A DNA stretch of 44,924 bases from Sporomusaceae bacterium (GTDB taxonomy: Bacteria > Bacillota > Negativicutes > Acidaminococcales > JAJUGR01). A model generated the notes under the pieces. It was not told the origin of the DNA. It searched no databases and saw only the letters and a program-made list of their open reading frames with translations. The position numbers were made by a program, and so were the translations under genes. Positions 14,832-22,168 of this stretch are shown piece by piece (the first letter of the stretch is position 1; each line of letters begins with the position of its first letter). The DNA is taken from NCBI GenBank assembly GCA_029265905.1, contig JAJUGR010000020.1, positions 1-44,924 of the forward strand, in the 5' to 3' direction.

Positions 14832-15821
14832 TTACCAGCCCATTGTTTTCTTCATGTTCGTCTCGACGTTCTTCATGAAGGCCGTGTAGTCAGCAGAGTT
14901 CTGGTACGAAACCTGCAGGCCCATGCGTTCCATTTCGGCAACATGTTCCGGATCAGCCATCACCTTCTGCAAGGCCGCTTCCAAGCGTTTCACCGCCGCC
15001 GGATCCGTATTGGCCGGGCAGGCAAAACCGCGCGCGGCAAAAGCGGAGACGTCCGTGCCGATCGCTTCCTTCATGGTCAGCGTGTCCGGCAAATACTTCG
15101 ACCGTTCGTCATCCAACACAGCCATGGGGCGCATCGTGCCCTCTTTCGCCAAATTACGGATGTCACCGGCGCCCATCGAAACGATATCAACATGTCCGCC
15201 CATCGCCGTCGTCAACGCTTCCGATACGCCGGAGGTATGAACGGCCTTCATTTTATAGCCCAGCTTTTCGAGCGCGATCAGCGCAATATGATGCTGGGTG
15301 TAGATGCCGGAAGTGGCTACCGACACCTTGCCGGGGTTGGCTTTCACGTATTCCATCAGTTCCTTGACGTTTTTGTACGGCGAATCCGGGCGCACCGCCC
15401 AAGCGGTTGTATCCTGGACGTGGCGGGCCAGCAGCGTCACATTGTTCAGGTTCATGTCGCGCTTATTTTCCGGATTCAGGTAGGAGGTGATGAAAGTCAT
15501 GTTCATCAAAGACAGCGTATACCCGTCCGGTTTCGCCTTCATCATCTTGGTCCAGCCAATCCAGCCGGCAGCGCCAGTCACGTTTTCCACCACAACCGGT
15601 TGGCCGAGTTCCGTTTCCAAGCGCTTGGCCATCAGCCGGGCGCCAACGTCAGAACTGCCGCCGGCCGAGTATGGCACGATCAAGGTAATCGGTTTGTTCG
15701 GATAGTTGCTGGCCGCCGATTTCTTGTCCGCAGGCGCCGACTTGGAGCAGCCGGTCAGCACCGCGCCTGCCAAAACCGCCGCCATGAGCACGCAACCCAT
15801 TTTCTTGAGATTCAGTTTCAT
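14832..15821 (-). CDS. TTT-family solute-binding lipoprotein (TctC-like)
   Basis: The 329-residue protein has a lipoprotein signal peptide with lipobox LTGC at 22-25 and then the Bug/TctC fold starting 'YPNKPITLIVPYSAGGSSDVGAR', with the 'G..GW.G' ligand loop. It should sit on the outer face of the membrane, capture a carboxylic compound and hand it to the TctA/TctB membrane pair. It is third in the order tctB, tctA, tctC, 21 bases after tctA, with AGGGGG before the ATG. The solute is not readable from the sequence. The shared operator with the amidohydrolase operon suggests that it is the substrate or a precursor of that pathway. Confidence 0.9.
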   Translation of the reverse strand: MKLNLKKMGCVLMAAVLAGAVLTGCSKSAPADKKSAASNYPNKPITLIVPYSAGGSSDVGARLMAKRLETELGQPVVVENVTGAAGWIGWTKMMKAKPDGYTLSLMNMTFITSYLNPENKRDMNLNNVTLLARHVQDTTAWAVRPDSPYKNVKELMEYVKANPGKVSVATSGIYTQHHIALIALEKLGYKMKAVHTSGVSEALTTAMGGHVDIVSMGAGDIRNLAKEGTMRPMAVLDDERSKYLPDTLTMKEAIGTDVSAFAARGFACPANTDPAAVKRLEAALQKVMADPEHVAEMERMGLQVSYQNSADYTAFMKNVETNMKKTMGW

Positions 15822-15842: not shown

Positions 15843-17348
15843 TTACATTTCACTGTCGCCTTCAATGCCTTTATCCTTGGCGCCGAAGTAAAGGCTAACG
15901 GCGATGATGCTGATCGCGATGACCAACAGCGTCGCAGAAATCGGCCGCTGGAAGAAGCCCATAAAACTGCCGTTGAAAATCGTCAGCGATTTCATCAGCG
16001 AGGTCTCTAAAATCTTGCCAAGCACATAGGTCAAGAGCACGGGCCCTAACGGGAACTGGACTTTTTTCATGAAGTACCCCAGGATGCCGAAGGCAAGCAT
16101 CATGCCGACGTCAAACAGGCGGTTGTTGATGCTGTAGGAGCCAACGGCCATGATGATCAGGATATTCGGCAGCAGGATTCTAAAAGGGATTCTGGTGATC
16201 TGCGCCCACACATTGGCCAACGGCAAATTCATGACGAGGAGAATCAGGTTGCCGATAAACATGCTGGCGATAACGCCCCAGACGAATTCCGGGTTTTTTT
16301 GCATCAGCGTCGGCCCCGGAGTCAGTCCATGCATAATGAACGCCCCGAGCAAAATTGCGACAGACGGCGAGCTTGGGATCCCCAGCGTAAACAAAGGAAT
16401 CAGCGCCGCGCCGGCGTAGGCGTTGTTGGCCGTTTCCGGCCCCGCCACCCCTTCGATCGCCCCCTTGCCAAAGCGCGAGGGATCTTTCGCCACTTTCTTC
16501 TCAATCGAGTAGCTGAGAATCGTCGGAATGACGGAGTTCGTCCCGGGCACCAGGCCAATCAAAGACCCGAGTGCGCTCCCGCGCAAGATGGACTTGAGCG
16601 CCGGCCCCCACTCGTCCCGTCGCGGCAACATGTTTTGGATCTTGGGCGGCTTCGTCGCCTGAGCATGCAGATTTTCTTCCGCCGTCATAAATATTTCCGA
16701 CAGACCGAACAGGCCCATGGCCAGCGAAACAAATTCCAGCCCGTCCTCCAGGTCTGTCTGCCCGAAGGTAAAGCGCATTGTTCCCGTCACCGAATCGATG
16801 CCGATAAACGCGAGCGTCAAGCCGAACAGCGCGCCGATCAAACCGCGAACCAAGGATTTTCCCATCAAGCCGACCAGCAGCGACAGCCCGACCACCACAA
16901 GGGCAAAGTATTCCGGCGGTCCTAACTTCAACGCTTGCTGGGCGACGAGCGGTCCGACGAAAATCAACAGGCCCAAGGCAAACATCCCGCCGATGAACGA
17001 ACCGATGGCGGCAACCCCCAATGCTGTTCCAGCCCGGCCCTGCCGCGCCATCGGATAGCCGTCCAGGCAGGTGATCAGCGACGCCGATTCGCCCGGCGTG
17101 TTGATCAGCACCGATGTAATCGTCCCGCCGTACATAGCGCCGTAATAGATGCCGGCAAGCATAATTACCGCCGCCACCGGCGACATGCCAAACGTCAGCG
17201 GCAGCAAGAGCGCCGTTCCCGCCGTCGGCCCAAGACCAGGCAGGACCCCGACCAGCATGCCGAACGTCACCCCGATCAAGGCGTACAGCAGATTCCAGCC
17301 GCTTACCGCCGTATCCAGTCCTTGCAGCAAGTATCCCAGTGCTTCCAC
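15843..17348 (-). CDS. TTT-family large membrane subunit (TctA-like)
   Basis: The 501-residue permease has about 12 hydrophobic segments and the family hallmark 'GVLPGLGPTAGTALLLPLTFG' near residues 37-57, plus a second 'PGTNSVIP' motif mid-protein. It is the transport subunit that takes solute from TctC and moves it inward with a cation gradient. The start is GTG with GAGGGGG six bases upstream; tctB ends 12 bases before it. Its length is normal for the family. Confidence 0.93.
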   Translation of the reverse strand: MEALGYLLQGLDTAVSGWNLLYALIGVTFGMLVGVLPGLGPTAGTALLLPLTFGMSPVAAVIMLAGIYYGAMYGGTITSVLINTPGESASLITCLDGYPMARQGRAGTALGVAAIGSFIGGMFALGLLIFVGPLVAQQALKLGPPEYFALVVVGLSLLVGLMGKSLVRGLIGALFGLTLAFIGIDSVTGTMRFTFGQTDLEDGLEFVSLAMGLFGLSEIFMTAEENLHAQATKPPKIQNMLPRRDEWGPALKSILRGSALGSLIGLVPGTNSVIPTILSYSIEKKVAKDPSRFGKGAIEGVAGPETANNAYAGAALIPLFTLGIPSSPSVAILLGAFIMHGLTPGPTLMQKNPEFVWGVIASMFIGNLILLVMNLPLANVWAQITRIPFRILLPNILIIMAVGSYSINNRLFDVGMMLAFGILGYFMKKVQFPLGPVLLTYVLGKILETSLMKSLTIFNGSFMGFFQRPISATLLVIAISIIAVSLYFGAKDKGIEGDSEM

Positions 17349-17360
17349 AATAATCCCCCT

Positions 17361-17810
17361 CTACCAGCCAAATTCATTCACAGGCAACGGTATGCCAAGC
17401 ACAAAACTGAATACAAAGAATACAATTCCAGTTACTATAGCCGAAAACATCATGCTTGTTTTCCAGGAATACCCTCGGGAAAACAGGATAAACAACATGA
17501 TCGTGCTCGTTGTAACAAAACCGGCGTAAGGAACAGCGATGATATAAAAAGCAAATGACCCTACGCAACTGAGCACATTGGCCAACGAAGTTCCTGTTGG
17601 CAGTAGGTCGGAAAATTGCGTGTTGCTCTTTTTAAACGCGGCAACCAGATTGATTGCCGACAGCACTATCATTATTCCACTAGTCCACACTGGCAAGAGG
17701 CCAGGGCCAGGACCATACTCGCCGTAATACTGCAAGCCCGATGCCATTTTAAAGATAACACCGCCAAACAGTATGAAGAAAAGACTGATGTACACCTCTA
17801 CGTTCTTCAC
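17361..17810 (-). CDS. TTT-family small membrane subunit (TctB-like)
   Basis: The 149-residue protein has four hydrophobic segments and the 'GPGPGLLPVW' motif near 33-42, which fits TctB (PF07331). It is first in the tct operon. The start is GTG, with AGGGGGG about seven bases upstream. TctB proteins are poorly conserved, so the call rests on size, topology, this motif and position before tctA. The long leader (17811-18066) holds no ORF or known RNA motif that I can see. Confidence 0.85.
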   Translation of the reverse strand: MKNVEVYISLFFILFGGVIFKMASGLQYYGEYGPGPGLLPVWTSGIMIVLSAINLVAAFKKSNTQFSDLLPTGTSLANVLSCVGSFAFYIIAVPYAGFVTTSTIMLFILFSRGYSWKTSMMFSAIVTGIVFFVFSFVLGIPLPVNEFGW

Positions 17811-18047
17811 TTGATACCCCCCTGCGCATTCATACTTTTACCGGCCATGCGTCAGCCATCCCTCTCTAAAAGAAGCTTGCGATCCACTTTCCCTCAGTTA
17901 CCCCTTCATCACCAGCTCTAAGCGTGTTGGCCATTCCCCCCTTCACAGCGTGTGGCTAGAGCAGTTGCTCATTTTCGCATGATTGGCATTCATGCATTTG
18001 TCTTTACGCGATAGTTTGTGAAAAAAATAATTCTTACTCTAATCTTA

Positions 18048-18067
18048 TGAAAATTTTATTACTTTCA
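18048..18067. promoter_or_regulatory. Putative RpiR operator at the tct promoter
   Basis: TGAAAATTTTATTACTTTCA is a dyad (TGAAA-N10-TTTCA) touching the -10 box. A closely matching block lies in the same place at 22121-22142, downstream of the amidohydrolase -10 box. Confidence 0.6.
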
Positions 18068-18095
18068 TTATATTCACTCTTTCACCGCTTGTAAA
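18067..18095 (-). promoter_or_regulatory. Sigma-A promoter of the tctBAC operon
   Basis: On the minus strand TTTACA (18090-18095), 17 bp, TATAAT (18067-18072). The predicted start lies inside the operator-like dyad, as expected for repression. Confidence 0.75.
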
Positions 18096-18210
18096 GAGTT
18101 TTTTCATTATCCCGCCCTGAAACGAGGCGCAGAAGTCCTTTCCCAGTATACAGTTGCGCGCCCAAAGCATCTGCGCGTGAAGATATCGGCCAAAAGCCTG
18201 GCTTAATCTG

Positions 18211-18243
18211 AAAAAAACGAGCTCGCCAAACGGCGAACTCGTT
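18211..18243 (-). terminator. Terminator of the rpiR-type gene
   Basis: AACGAGTTCGCC pairs with GGCGAGCTCGTT around four bases and is followed by seven T on the minus strand, 20 bases past the stop. Confidence 0.85.
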
Positions 18244-18263
18244 GTGGGTTGCAGCCAAGAACA

Positions 18264-19118
18264 TCATTTCATTACATTGGCTCCAATGGCAACTGACACC
18301 AGCTCAATCTCTTCCAAAAACTTCTTCGTCTTTTCCACATTCTTATTGGCCACGCCGGTCACCAGCAAATCAGCGACAAAAATAGCGCCAATTGCCGAAT
18401 GGTGAAACGACAAGCTATCAAACGAGCACGGCAGAAAAACCTCGGACAGGTTGGCCACGGGCGAAGAATAACCGTCGGTGATGGCCAGAATCTTTGCCCC
18501 GCGCTCCTTTGCCACTTTGGCAATATCAACCGACCGTTTTGAATACCTGGGCAGACAGATCGCAACCACCAGCACGTCTGGCGTCATCTTCGCGACACTT
18601 GACTGCACGCGGCTCGAATTGTGCTCGAACCATTCGCAGTCAAGCCCCAGGCGGTTCAGGCCTTCATTTAAATAAGCCGCCGCGGCGCCGCTGGTTCGGT
18701 CGCCGACAATGCAGATCTTCTTTGCCGACAGAATCAAATCAAATGCGTGGTTGACTTTTTCTTCCGACAAAAAATCAGACGTTTTTTTGATGTTGTTGAT
18801 TTGCAGTTCGGCGCACTTTTGGATTAAGCCACTGCCCCGCTGCCGTTCAATATTTTTTTCCAGCCGGGAAGGGGGCGCCACACGCGTGATGAGCATGCCT
18901 TGCAGTTCCTTTTGAAATTGGCTGAAACCGGAGAAGCCCAAGCCATAGCACAGCCGCATGACAGTGGCTACGCTTACGCCAATCTCGCCTGCTATTTGCT
19001 CAACCGTCATAAACGCAACTTCTGAAGGATGCTTCAAAATGTAATCGCCGACGATTTTCTGCGATGCGGTTAGTTCGCTTATTTTTTCCTCCAACAATGT
19101 CAACACTGATGTACTCAT
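18264..19118 (-). CDS. RpiR/MurR-family transcriptional regulator with SIS domain
   Basis: The 284-residue regulator has an N-terminal HTH_6 domain ('MTVEQIAGEIGVSVATVMRLCYGLGFSGFSQF', about 37-68) and a C-terminal SIS sugar-isomerase-like domain (about 120-260), which in this family senses a phosphosugar or another small acid. The ATG at 19118 has GGAGG seven bases upstream; the longer frame would start at or before the transcription start and is rejected. It lies between the enzyme operon and the tct operon, and both of those carry the same operator-like block, so it is the obvious controller of both. Its own promoter (TTTACA-16-TATAAT, 19147-19174) overlaps a related TGAAAT...TTTACA element. 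Confidence 0.9.
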   Translation of the reverse strand: MSTSVLTLLEEKISELTASQKIVGDYILKHPSEVAFMTVEQIAGEIGVSVATVMRLCYGLGFSGFSQFQKELQGMLITRVAPPSRLEKNIERQRGSGLIQKCAELQINNIKKTSDFLSEEKVNHAFDLILSAKKICIVGDRTSGAAAAYLNEGLNRLGLDCEWFEHNSSRVQSSVAKMTPDVLVVAICLPRYSKRSVDIAKVAKERGAKILAITDGYSSPVANLSEVFLPCSFDSLSFHHSAIGAIFVADLLVTGVANKNVEKTKKFLEEIELVSVAIGANVMK

Positions 19119-19146
19119 AGCAAATCCTCCAACTACATTTGCTAAC

Positions 19147-19174
19147 ATTATACCATTGTCTTTGTATTTGTAAA
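19147..19174 (-). promoter_or_regulatory. Promoter of the rpiR-type gene
   Basis: TTTACA (19169-19174), 16 bp, TATAAT (19147-19152) on the minus strand, about 30 bases before the preferred ATG. Confidence 0.65.
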
Positions 19175-19249
19175 ATTCATTTCAAGCGATAAAAGCTAGA
19201 CGGACAAAATGTTAGTAACACTCTGCCCGCCTAGCTTTACAATGACTAG

Positions 19250-19945
19250 CTATTCATTGTAATATCCGTCAATAATCTCACAGTTGATCGCTTTCAACTC
19301 TTTGTCCAGCCACGGTTTTTCGCGTTTTTCACCGGCTTTGATCGCTTCAAGGGCTTTCGTTTCGTTGGCCAGCTTGGCCTTCGCCTTCTCCAAAATAACC
19401 GGCGCATCTTTCGGATTGATGATGACAATGCCGTCTTTGTCCCCGACGACGATGTCGCCAGGATGCACAATCACGCCGCCGCAGCATACCGGCACGTTGA
19501 TTTCGCCCGGACCGTTCTTATATGGCCCCTTAGGCTGAACCCCTGCCGCATAAACGGACATGTCCACGTGCTTCATCGCCTCGGCGTCGCGAATCGCCCC
19601 GTCGATCACAACGCCGGCAATGCCGTTGACGGCGGCTTGCGTCATCATGATTTCACCGGTAATGGCATTGGCCAAATCGCCTTGGGCGTCAACAATGATG
19701 ACGTCGCCCGGCTGCGCCAATTCCAATGCCTTATGCAAAAACAGGTTGTCGGCAACACGCGCTTTTACGGTAAACGCCGTTCCCAACAGTGGCTTGTCAT
19801 TGTACGGTTTTATTCTTGCGTCCACGCAAAAGAAACGATTCATCTCATCGGCAATGTTGGCGACAGGAATGCCGCTGAAGCCCTGAACAAGCTCTTTATC
19901 CGGCCGATTGATTTTCAAAAAGATTCTGCAACCTGCGTTCGACAT
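19250..19945 (-). CDS. RraA/HMG-CHA aldolase-family protein
   Basis: The 231-residue protein belongs to the family of 4-hydroxy-4-methyl-2-oxoglutarate aldolases and RraA. The active-site stretch 'GVVIDGAIRDAEAM' supplies Arg119 and Asp120, which bind the oxo-acid and metal, and 'GDLANAITGEIMMTQA' supplies the metal/ligand loop around Gly97-Glu98. Such enzymes split 4-hydroxy-2-oxo acids to pyruvate, or decarboxylate oxaloacetate, with a divalent metal. The ATG has AAGGAG upstream. It follows the dehydrogenase gene by 38 bases and ends the operon. A catabolic aldolase is far more likely here than the RNase E inhibitor role, because of the neighbours. Confidence 0.87.
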   Translation of the reverse strand: MSNAGCRIFLKINRPDKELVQGFSGIPVANIADEMNRFFCVDARIKPYNDKPLLGTAFTVKARVADNLFLHKALELAQPGDVIIVDAQGDLANAITGEIMMTQAAVNGIAGVVIDGAIRDAEAMKHVDMSVYAAGVQPKGPYKNGPGEINVPVCCGGVIVHPGDIVVGDKDGIVIINPKDAPVILEKAKAKLANETKALEAIKAGEKREKPWLDKELKAINCEIIDGYYNE

Positions 19946-19983
19946 AATAACAATCTCCTTTGTATTTATAAATTTTTATCCAT

Positions 19984-20853
19984 TCAGTTCCAGGCGGCAA
20001 CAACGTCCTTCCAGCTTTTGGGCGTCTTTCCCGCAAATTTTTCATTCAGTTTTTTGGACGCCAGCCAGGCCAGCCTGTCCGCCGTCGCTTTGGACATCGT
20101 CGGCTTTACGTCGATACTCTCCAGCATTTCGATTACGCTTTCCATTTCGTGCGCGCGACGCTCGGCATGAATGGCGCTCCCGGTCACAAGCCGATTGAAC
20201 GTCTCCTCAAACGGGCAAGCATCCATCGTCGAGGCCAAGGACTCCAGCACCAAATTATCGACCTTCATCAAGGCCGCTGCCTCCAGCACCTCGACAAACA
20301 GCGCCGGCAAGCCCTTCATGAAGATGCTGCGCACAAACTTGATGCCGGTCGCTTCACCAGGGACATCGCTGATTTTATCAAGCTTCATGTGATAGTCTTT
20401 CATCAGGTCGATGAGCAAATCACAGCCATTGCCGCTAATCAGCATCGGCACCTGATGCTTGTACAACGGCAACGAACCCAACATGGCGCCGTCAACCATC
20501 AGCGCGCCTGTTTCCGCTATTTCCTCGGCAATATTCCGTTTTATTTCCGGCGACGCCGCGGAAACGTCGACATACAGCAGCCCTGTTCGCAGATGCGGCT
20601 TCAATTGTTTCGCCGTATCAAGCGCAAACGTGCCGGGCACAGCGACAAACACGATATCCACGTTATCCAACACCGCTTTTTGCGACTCCAGCAACGCAAC
20701 CGATGCCGTTTCGGCACGCTCTTTGACAAGTGCGCCCCTGGCAGCATCATTTTGCAGCACGTCATACGCTACGATGCCATCCAAACCTTCCCCCTTAAGC
20801 CCCCTTGCCACTTCAAACCCAACTTCACCAAACCCAATAAACCCGAGTTTCAT
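19984..20853 (-). CDS. NAD(P)-binding beta-hydroxyacid dehydrogenase-like protein
   Basis: The 289-residue protein starts with the Rossmann motif 'MKLGFIGFGEVG' (Gly7, Gly9, Gly12) and has the family's 'VDVSAASPEIK' substrate loop and a catalytic lysine candidate, Lys172 in 'TGIKFVRS'. The C-terminal helical part looks like the DUF1932 type (6-phosphogluconate dehydrogenase-like). It should oxidise a hydroxy acid or reduce an oxo acid with NAD(P). The start is the ATG at 20853, preceded by AGGGGG; the longer frame adds a non-family N-terminus that runs into the upstream gene. It lies 40 bases after the amidohydrolase and before the aldolase. Confidence 0.85.
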   Translation of the reverse strand: MKLGFIGFGEVGFEVARGLKGEGLDGIVAYDVLQNDAARGALVKERAETASVALLESQKAVLDNVDIVFVAVPGTFALDTAKQLKPHLRTGLLYVDVSAASPEIKRNIAEEIAETGALMVDGAMLGSLPLYKHQVPMLISGNGCDLLIDLMKDYHMKLDKISDVPGEATGIKFVRSIFMKGLPALFVEVLEAAALMKVDNLVLESLASTMDACPFEETFNRLVTGSAIHAERRAHEMESVIEMLESIDVKPTMSKATADRLAWLASKKLNEKFAGKTPKSWKDVVAAWN

Positions 20854-20893
20854 TTTCCGTTGCCCCCTTTGATTTTTTCTTGCTGCCCAATGC

Positions 20894-22045
20894 TTATAGT
20901 TGGCTTTCCAGGCTGGCATACACCACTTTGCCGTTTAACACGGTTAACTGCGGGATGAATACCTGCCGGCAATCTAACACTTCTCCTTTGAAATCCTGCA
21001 GTTGCAAAGGCATTTCCTTAATCCTAAACAGCGCAATGTCCGCATACGCTCCAGGCGCAAGCGTCCCGAGCCGCCCTTCCTGTCCCAATACTTTCGCCGG
21101 CGCAGCCGTGCAGGCGGCTACAACTTCCGGCAAGGTCATGCCCAAATTCAAGTACTTGGTCATGATGAGCGGCATGCCAAAGACCGCTTTATCATACACA
21201 TTGCCCCCAGTTAAATCCGTGCTGATCACGTCCGGCTTAAACCCCGCCGCCATCGCGCGGCGGATGGCGGCAAACGAATAGTGCGCGCGGCCATCCGCAG
21301 TATCGAAAACGACCCCGTCTTCCCGCGCCTTGCGCACGGCTTGGTCAATTTCCCCGGTTTCGTCGACGAGGCAATGTCCCTTGTCCTGATACATGTGGGT
21401 GTAGACGTCGCCGGGTCGAAGATACCCGGCAATTTGCCCCGCACTTCCAGGCGGGTTAGTCGTATGCACAACCACGGGACAGCCCAACTGCGCCGCCATC
21501 GCCACCATTTTCTCCAACGGCGCAAACCCGAAGTCGCCAACAATGTCCTGGCTGGTTCGTAATTTGAGTCCCAGCAGCTCTTTTTCATATTTTGTTAAGA
21601 GCAGGCGGGCCTTATCCAGATCAAACAGGTTTGGATCAACGTTTTCCAATACCCTTGGCAAGGTGCACAACCCCACCGGAGCGACATTCAAATAGGCAAA
21701 GATTCTTACCTGGCTATGCGTAATAACGCCGTCGTGGAAGCTTTCATAATTGGCGATGCCCGCACTGCCTTGGTCAACGGCGGTTGTTACGCCTTGCGGC
21801 AAAAAAGCCGCATCGGGGAAAACCCCGATTTCCGTTCCGCTATGAAAGAGATGCGCATGAAAATCAATAATCCCTGGGAACACGTAGCAACCCGTCGCGT
21901 CGATTGTCCGGCTCGCTTCCAGCGCTGCATGCTTTGTTATGGAAACGACTTTATTGTTCCGGACCAGAACATCGGCCTGTTCGAACACGTTGCTGGCAGG
22001 ATCGACAACCATCCCGCCCTTGATGAGCAAGCTGCCTTTTTGCAT
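20894..22045 (-). CDS. Amidohydrolase, cog3964/EF_0837-type deacylase
   Basis: The 383-residue amidohydrolase-superfamily enzyme has a full binuclear metal site: His63 and His65 in 'DFHAHLF', the probable carboxylated Lys161 in 'LLGLKLRTS', His194 in 'VVVHTTN', His217 in 'VYTHMYQ' and Asp277 in 'ISTDLTGG'. The arrangement and 'HAHLFH' fit the cog3964 group often mislabelled dihydroorotase; to my knowledge characterised members hydrolyse acyl esters of chiral 2-hydroxy acids rather than dihydroorotate. GGAGG is seven bases before the ATG. It is first in the operon with a hydroxyacid dehydrogenase and an aldolase. That order suits release, oxidation and cleavage of a hydroxy acid. The substrate is unknown. 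Confidence 0.85.
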   Translation of the reverse strand: MQKGSLLIKGGMVVDPASNVFEQADVLVRNNKVVSITKHAALEASRTIDATGCYVFPGIIDFHAHLFHSGTEIGVFPDAAFLPQGVTTAVDQGSAGIANYESFHDGVITHSQVRIFAYLNVAPVGLCTLPRVLENVDPNLFDLDKARLLLTKYEKELLGLKLRTSQDIVGDFGFAPLEKMVAMAAQLGCPVVVHTTNPPGSAGQIAGYLRPGDVYTHMYQDKGHCLVDETGEIDQAVRKAREDGVVFDTADGRAHYSFAAIRRAMAAGFKPDVISTDLTGGNVYDKAVFGMPLIMTKYLNLGMTLPEVVAACTAAPAKVLGQEGRLGTLAPGAYADIALFRIKEMPLQLQDFKGEVLDCRQVFIPQLTVLNGKVVYASLESQL

Positions 22046-22120
22046 CCACCCGCCTCCTTCTTAAAGGCTAGATTAGTACCTACTCTTCTGTTGTAATTTT
22101 TTTATCTTTTATATTTCGAA

Positions 22121-22142
22121 GGGAATTTTTATTACTTGAATT
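22121..22142. promoter_or_regulatory. Putative RpiR operator at the amidohydrolase promoter
   Basis: GGGAATTTTTATTACTTGAATT aligns base for base with the block at 18048-18069, sharing the core TTTTATTACTT, and has the same position just downstream of the -10 box. Confidence 0.55.
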
Positions 22143-22168
22143 GTACCACTAGAATCAAGCGCTGTAAA
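22140..22168 (-). promoter_or_regulatory. Sigma-A promoter of the amidohydrolase operon
   Basis: TTTACA (22163-22168), 17 bp, TACAAT (22140-22145) on the minus strand. The same -35 and spacing are used at the tct promoter. Confidence 0.72.

Follow-up and report, generated by a model that had tools for sequence, protein, structure and literature searches.

Two promoters about 4 kb apart in a 44,924-nucleotide stretch of DNA from a Sporomusaceae bacterium (contig JAJUGR010000020.1, positions 1 to 44,924; hereafter the window) carry nearly the same block of sequence, which raises the question of what recognizes this block and which genes it brings under common control. The cluster concerned lies entirely on the minus strand and consists of operon A, with an amidohydrolase as its first gene (20894–22045; Pfam and NCBIfam), a NAD-binding DUF1932 dehydrogenase (19984–20919, likely start 20853; Pfam) and a RraA-like aldolase/decarboxylase (19250–19945; Pfam, and NCBIfam NF004850 above its cut-off), followed by a RpiR-family regulator with HTH_6 and SIS domains (18264–19148; Pfam), whose likely true start at 19115 is preceded by a ribosome-binding site, and by the tct operon encoding TctB (first gene, 17361–17810), TctA (15843–17348) and the solute-binding protein TctC (14832–15821), all three assigned by Pfam. 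The analysis presented here indicates, with a probability of roughly 0.8, that the RpiR protein whose gene lies between the two operons uses this block as one of a tandem pair of operators and would act as a repressor of both operons.

The sequence-only reading, which ascribed to both promoters the same -35 box, spacer length, block and block position and placed rpiR between the two operons, is confirmed by direct inspection, the rpiR open reading frame spanning 18264–19148. Both promoters lie on the minus strand; that of tct has TTTACA at 18090–18095 and TATAAT at 18067–18072, and the amidohydrolase promoter TTTACA at 22163–22168 and TACAAT at 22140–22145, each with a 17-bp spacer, and in both cases AGTAATAAAA begins 3 bp past the -10 box. 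The 22-base blocks (18048–18069 and 22121–22142) are identical at 17 of 22 positions and have in common the 11-mer TTTTATTACTT, which occurs three times in the 2,422,892 bases of the genome, twice at these promoters. The third copy (G000:C41:3186–3196, locus L025) is unpaired and lies 5' of an unrelated LivK-type periplasmic binding-protein gene. The dyad proposed within the block, TGAAA-N10-TTTCA, can be read at tct but not at the amidohydrolase promoter (GGGAA...TTGAA), and none of 111 strong sites at related loci contains it in either orientation; not being conserved, it was rejected as the operator.

A motif was therefore sought in the upstream regions of clusters from same-class genomes with this RpiR (13 of 380 at E up to 1e-40), the window being left out and the promoter region of a paralogous cluster from the same genome (C32, see below) being included in the training set. 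A palindromic model of width 16 with an order-2 background yielded de novo the motif TGTAaTAatTAtTACA, with a log-likelihood of 60.7 and far ahead of any other, and the resulting matrix ranks five window sites 1 to 5 among 44,909 window positions. Three other candidates were abandoned: an unconstrained search, which drifted into AT-rich low complexity; TTGAAA-N6-TTTCAA, derived from rpiR promoters and one site in genome G293 and dropped after further promoters gave a TGTAAT/ATTACA consensus; and a third operator half over the conserved -35 TTTACA, whose score was inconsistent (mean -2.3).

Comparison with the related clusters defines the conserved unit as a 16-bp palindrome resembling TGTAATAAWTATTACA, with half-sites TGTAAT/ATTACA and little information in the bases outside the 16-mer among the related-loci sites. 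Two copies, 29 bp apart, follow each of the tct and amidohydrolase promoters, and one overlaps the -35 box of rpiR, all on the minus strand. At tct, predicted operator 1 (AGTAATAAAATTTTCA, 18048–18063, 3 bp past the -10) holds matrix rank 1 and also matches the single-site pattern, and operator 2 (AGAATTATTTTTTTCA, 18019–18034, rank 3, part of the paired pattern) lies 29 bp downstream. At the amidohydrolase promoter, operator 1 (AGTAATAAAAATTCCC, 22121–22136, rank 4), with a poor right half (TTCCC), again begins 3 bp past the -10, with operator 2 (AGATAAAAAAATTACA, 22092–22107, rank 5, paired pattern) 29 bp downstream. The single candidate operator of rpiR (TGAAATGAATTTTACA, 19169–19184, rank 2) ends in six bases that are themselves the -35 box, from which a 16-bp spacer leads to a -10 TATAAT at 19147–19152, and equivalent sites precede rpiR in relatives G293 and G063. 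The second copies at both promoters and the rpiR copy had escaped the earlier reading; since the five best window sites include the second copies, the block first noticed is the first of two. The window sites score 9–13 bits, below most of those in relatives (up to 20). The 29-bp spacing recurs in G073, G076, G293 and G318, and a spacing of 30 bp is found in G068, G310 and the C32 cluster.

Specificity was assessed by whole-genome scans with patterns, the matrix itself being run over window positions. The single-site pattern TGTARTAAAWWTTACA at up to two mismatches matches six genome sites, two of them in this cluster, and at three mismatches falls to background level (61 genome matches versus 77 in the control). 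The paired pattern at up to three mismatches matches exactly two places in the 2.42-Mb genome, the tct and amidohydrolase promoters, and none in the control; the limit was chosen in the knowledge that the amidohydrolase pair requires three mismatches, and no other place in the genome reaches it. A motif scattered through the genome would have spoken against the earlier reading, but these scans did not refute it: the paired motif is confined to these two promoters. Across the 380 genomes of the class, the paired pattern at one mismatch occurs in ten genomes, with none in the control: the matches in the genome of the window (G000) and in G073, G076, G293 and G318 fall inside RpiR clusters, that in G077 belongs to a locus that stops at a contig edge, and those in G005, G010, G174 and G085:C44, distant from any RpiR-type cluster, are probably due to chance. 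In G318, another site pair (L043:1512–1556) lies before a 2-oxoacid:ferredoxin oxidoreductase-like operon adjoining rpiR, and the predicted regulon is therefore larger in that genome.

The same arrangement extends well beyond the class. An earlier contig scan with a single RpiR protein as query gave no matches; a scan with an RpiR alignment collected 51 loci with a closer RpiR, mostly from Bacilli (Bacillaceae, Paenibacillaceae, Staphylococcaceae and a few others), and 23 with remote RpiRs. With the same matrix, site pairs 28–32 bp apart are present in 40 of the 51 closer-RpiR loci, 40 pairs being spaced by exactly 30 bp, and in none of the 23 remote-RpiR loci or the shuffled sequence. The sites stand directly 5' of the RraA-like and DUF1932 dehydrogenase genes in related loci, and these two enzymes form a constant module, while the accompanying carboxylate transporter varies (TTT, DctM-like or CitMHS family, with the sodium:sulfate-symporter family also represented in Negativicutes). 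In an alignment of sixty-one such promoters, a -35 of TTTAC[AT] or TTGACA is separated by about 17 bp from TAnnnT, which is followed after 0–14 bp by site 1 and, after a further 13–15 bp, by site 2; TTTAC[AT] is the commoner -35 (59/61 promoters) but is also common in the background. Genomes reached via unrelated RpiRs served as a blind test of the paired pattern. In Neobacillus cucumis it matched two places, in a region holding a previously unseen cluster with a RpiR of the same clade (55% to a Bacilli member), a dehydrogenase, an amidohydrolase, a MFS transporter and RraA. A second site pair in N. cucumis (L182:5066–5111) precedes an ABC transporter operon adjoining the RpiR cluster. Upstream of the -35 box in three Bacilli loci (L098, L122 and L124), sequences such as TGTAAGCGCTTA and GAAAGCGTTTCA resemble CcpA cre sites, which suggests that these promoters may be under additional catabolite repression. 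One locus, on a contig assigned to Sphingomonas sp. PsM26 (L117), is nearly identical to that of Priestia aryabhattai (L118) and was probably carried into the Sphingomonas assembly by contamination.

The distribution of the sites follows that of the regulator. The window RpiR has an N-terminal HTH_6 domain (PF01418, 60.2 bits, cut-off 28.3) and a C-terminal SIS domain (PF01380, 56.8 bits, cut-off 25), and a tree of 80 RpiR proteins groups all 55 that have the operator into a single supported branch; of its 58 members, the three that lack an operator sit on short or cut contigs. The recognition helix reads GTSTTTIMRL in this branch and GVSVATVMRL in the window RpiR and its nearest relatives, and differs in the remote controls, many of which have xxDATVFRF. 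Sites, spacing, position at the promoters and co-occurrence with this RpiR clade are all directly observed. At the level of sequence, there is thus strong support for the proposal that the intervening RpiR uses the block as its operator and that the block marks the members of its regulon: the predicted sites track the RpiR clade throughout the class and also in Bacilli and Staphylococcus, and resemble the half-site of RccR.

The same genome encodes a second RpiR, 44% identical to that of the window, in cluster C32 (L024:8915–15405), together with a HD protein, two DASS-type transporters, a D-2-hydroxyacid dehydrogenase and a RraA 87% identical to the window copy; the HD gene is preceded by a weaker site pair, spaced by 30 bp and scoring 12.2 and 6.4. 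The window pairs might be bound mainly by this paralogue, or by both proteins, giving a cross-talking rather than private regulon; in favor of this are its position in the same supported branch, its similar recognition helix, the weaker pair before its HD–transporter–RraA operon and the close identity of the RraA copies. This is unlikely, however, given that the window rpiR lies between both operons with a site of its own, and that in the orthologous cluster of G293 the same genes are accompanied by a single local RpiR of this type. Far less probable, and largely refuted, is that the promoters resemble each other through duplication of a promoter region or as carriers of an RNA leader element: they do have CTCTTTACA and spacer length in common as well, and the block is located in the transcribed leader, but the motif forms a palindrome, returns in different classes at a fixed pair spacing amid unrelated flanks that carry little signal, also covers the untranscribed -35 of rpiR, and an Rfam search gave no family match. 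A chance likeness of AT-rich promoter leaders, to which the AT-rich sites and the background-level matches of the single-site pattern at three mismatches might point, is refuted by the five top ranks obtained with an independent matrix, the restriction of the pair to two promoters in the genome and its absence from the control and shuffles.

The predicted operators are placed as would be expected of a repressor. Transcription typically starts about 7 bases past the -10 box, in which case site 1 would extend from about -3 to +13 and site 2 from about +26 to +42; repression rather than activation is favored because the pair covers the transcription start and the early leader. We infer that RpiR dimers bound to the two 16-bp palindromes block RNA polymerase at the tct and amidohydrolase–dehydrogenase–RraA operons, and that they probably form a tetramer by contacts between their SIS domains. 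Cooperative binding is suggested by the fact that dimers 29–31 bp apart would lie near the same face of the DNA, against which it counts that 29 bp corresponds to 2.8 helical turns and not exactly 3. At rpiR, the last six bases of the single site are the -35 box, which fits autorepression, and the regulator probably controls its own synthesis negatively. A pathway metabolite bound to the SIS domain, possibly a carboxylic acid, would then release RpiR from its operators and act as inducer.

Among characterized regulators, the closest parallel is RccR, whose half-sites TGTAGT/ACTACA, measured in Pseudomonas fluorescens (PMC5489143), resemble TGTAAT/ATTACA, the sites of the window and its relatives being of the TGTARTAAAWWTTACA type with R mostly A; this likeness is one of sequence only. 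Both proteins belong to the RpiR family (HTH and SIS), and RccR likewise recognizes a palindrome, of 15 bp (for example TGTAGTAAAACTACA), with paired copies at aceE, and binds its own promoter region (PMC5489143), comparable to the single predicted operator before the window rpiR. In contrast, the aceE pairs are 68 bp apart and a 28-bp site is also used, as opposed to a 16-bp palindrome spaced by 29–31 bp here, and RccR responds to KDPG and controls central carbon targets (PMC5489143), whereas the present genes are for carboxylate transport and RraA and DUF1932 enzymes. HexR of Pseudomonas, also a RpiR-family protein, represses zwf and edd by binding operators close to the start site and beyond it on the downstream side (PMC5489143, PMC5902321), a start-site-proximal position comparable to that of the window sites (PMC5902321), but it differs in its TTGT-N7/8-ACAA consensus, its effector KDPG and its glucose genes (PMC5489143, PMC5902321). 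HexR is the best NCBIfam match of the window RpiR, at 78 bits, far under the curated cut-off of 296 bits. By sequence profile, the nearest solved structures are the RpiR-family entries PDB 4ivn and 3sho (E about 1e-29), of which 4ivn has the same two-domain layout as the window RpiR.

The nature of the effector may be approached through the SIS loop, which as SxSGxT usually binds sugar phosphate. This canonical loop is absent in the operator clade, where x-[P/A/S]-R-Y is found instead, the window RpiR (18264–19148) having LPRY within the residues LPRYSKR. The altered loop, together with the carboxylate transporters, hints at a carboxylic-acid rather than a sugar effector, weakly so because the remote-control RpiRs are mixed at this loop and some without an operator carry similar ones.

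A prior description of this regulon was not found in the searchable literature, a scope outside which most subscription papers and RegPrecise lie. Overall, it is well supported by the comparative evidence that a RpiR-family regulator with paired predicted operators, probably a repressor, governs a module for carboxylate uptake and aldolase/dehydrogenase reactions, a new regulon within a known kind of system, and the same paired predicted switch appears at related acid-degrading clusters in many other Bacillota. More tentatively, and at somewhat less than even odds, a RpiR subfamily widespread in Bacillota and altered in its SIS loop may sense a carboxylic acid in place of a sugar phosphate and, by means of rigidly paired operators, govern an uncharted catabolic pathway built on a RraA-like aldolase, a DUF1932 dehydrogenase and interchangeable acid transporters. 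The predicted regulon, for which exact operator coordinates are now available, would be common to Negativicutes, Bacillaceae, Paenibacillus and Staphylococcus, and links the RraA-like and DUF1932 enzymes, whose roles are unclear, with a single regulator and with carboxylate transporters; their substrate may therefore be approachable via the compound that releases the repressor.
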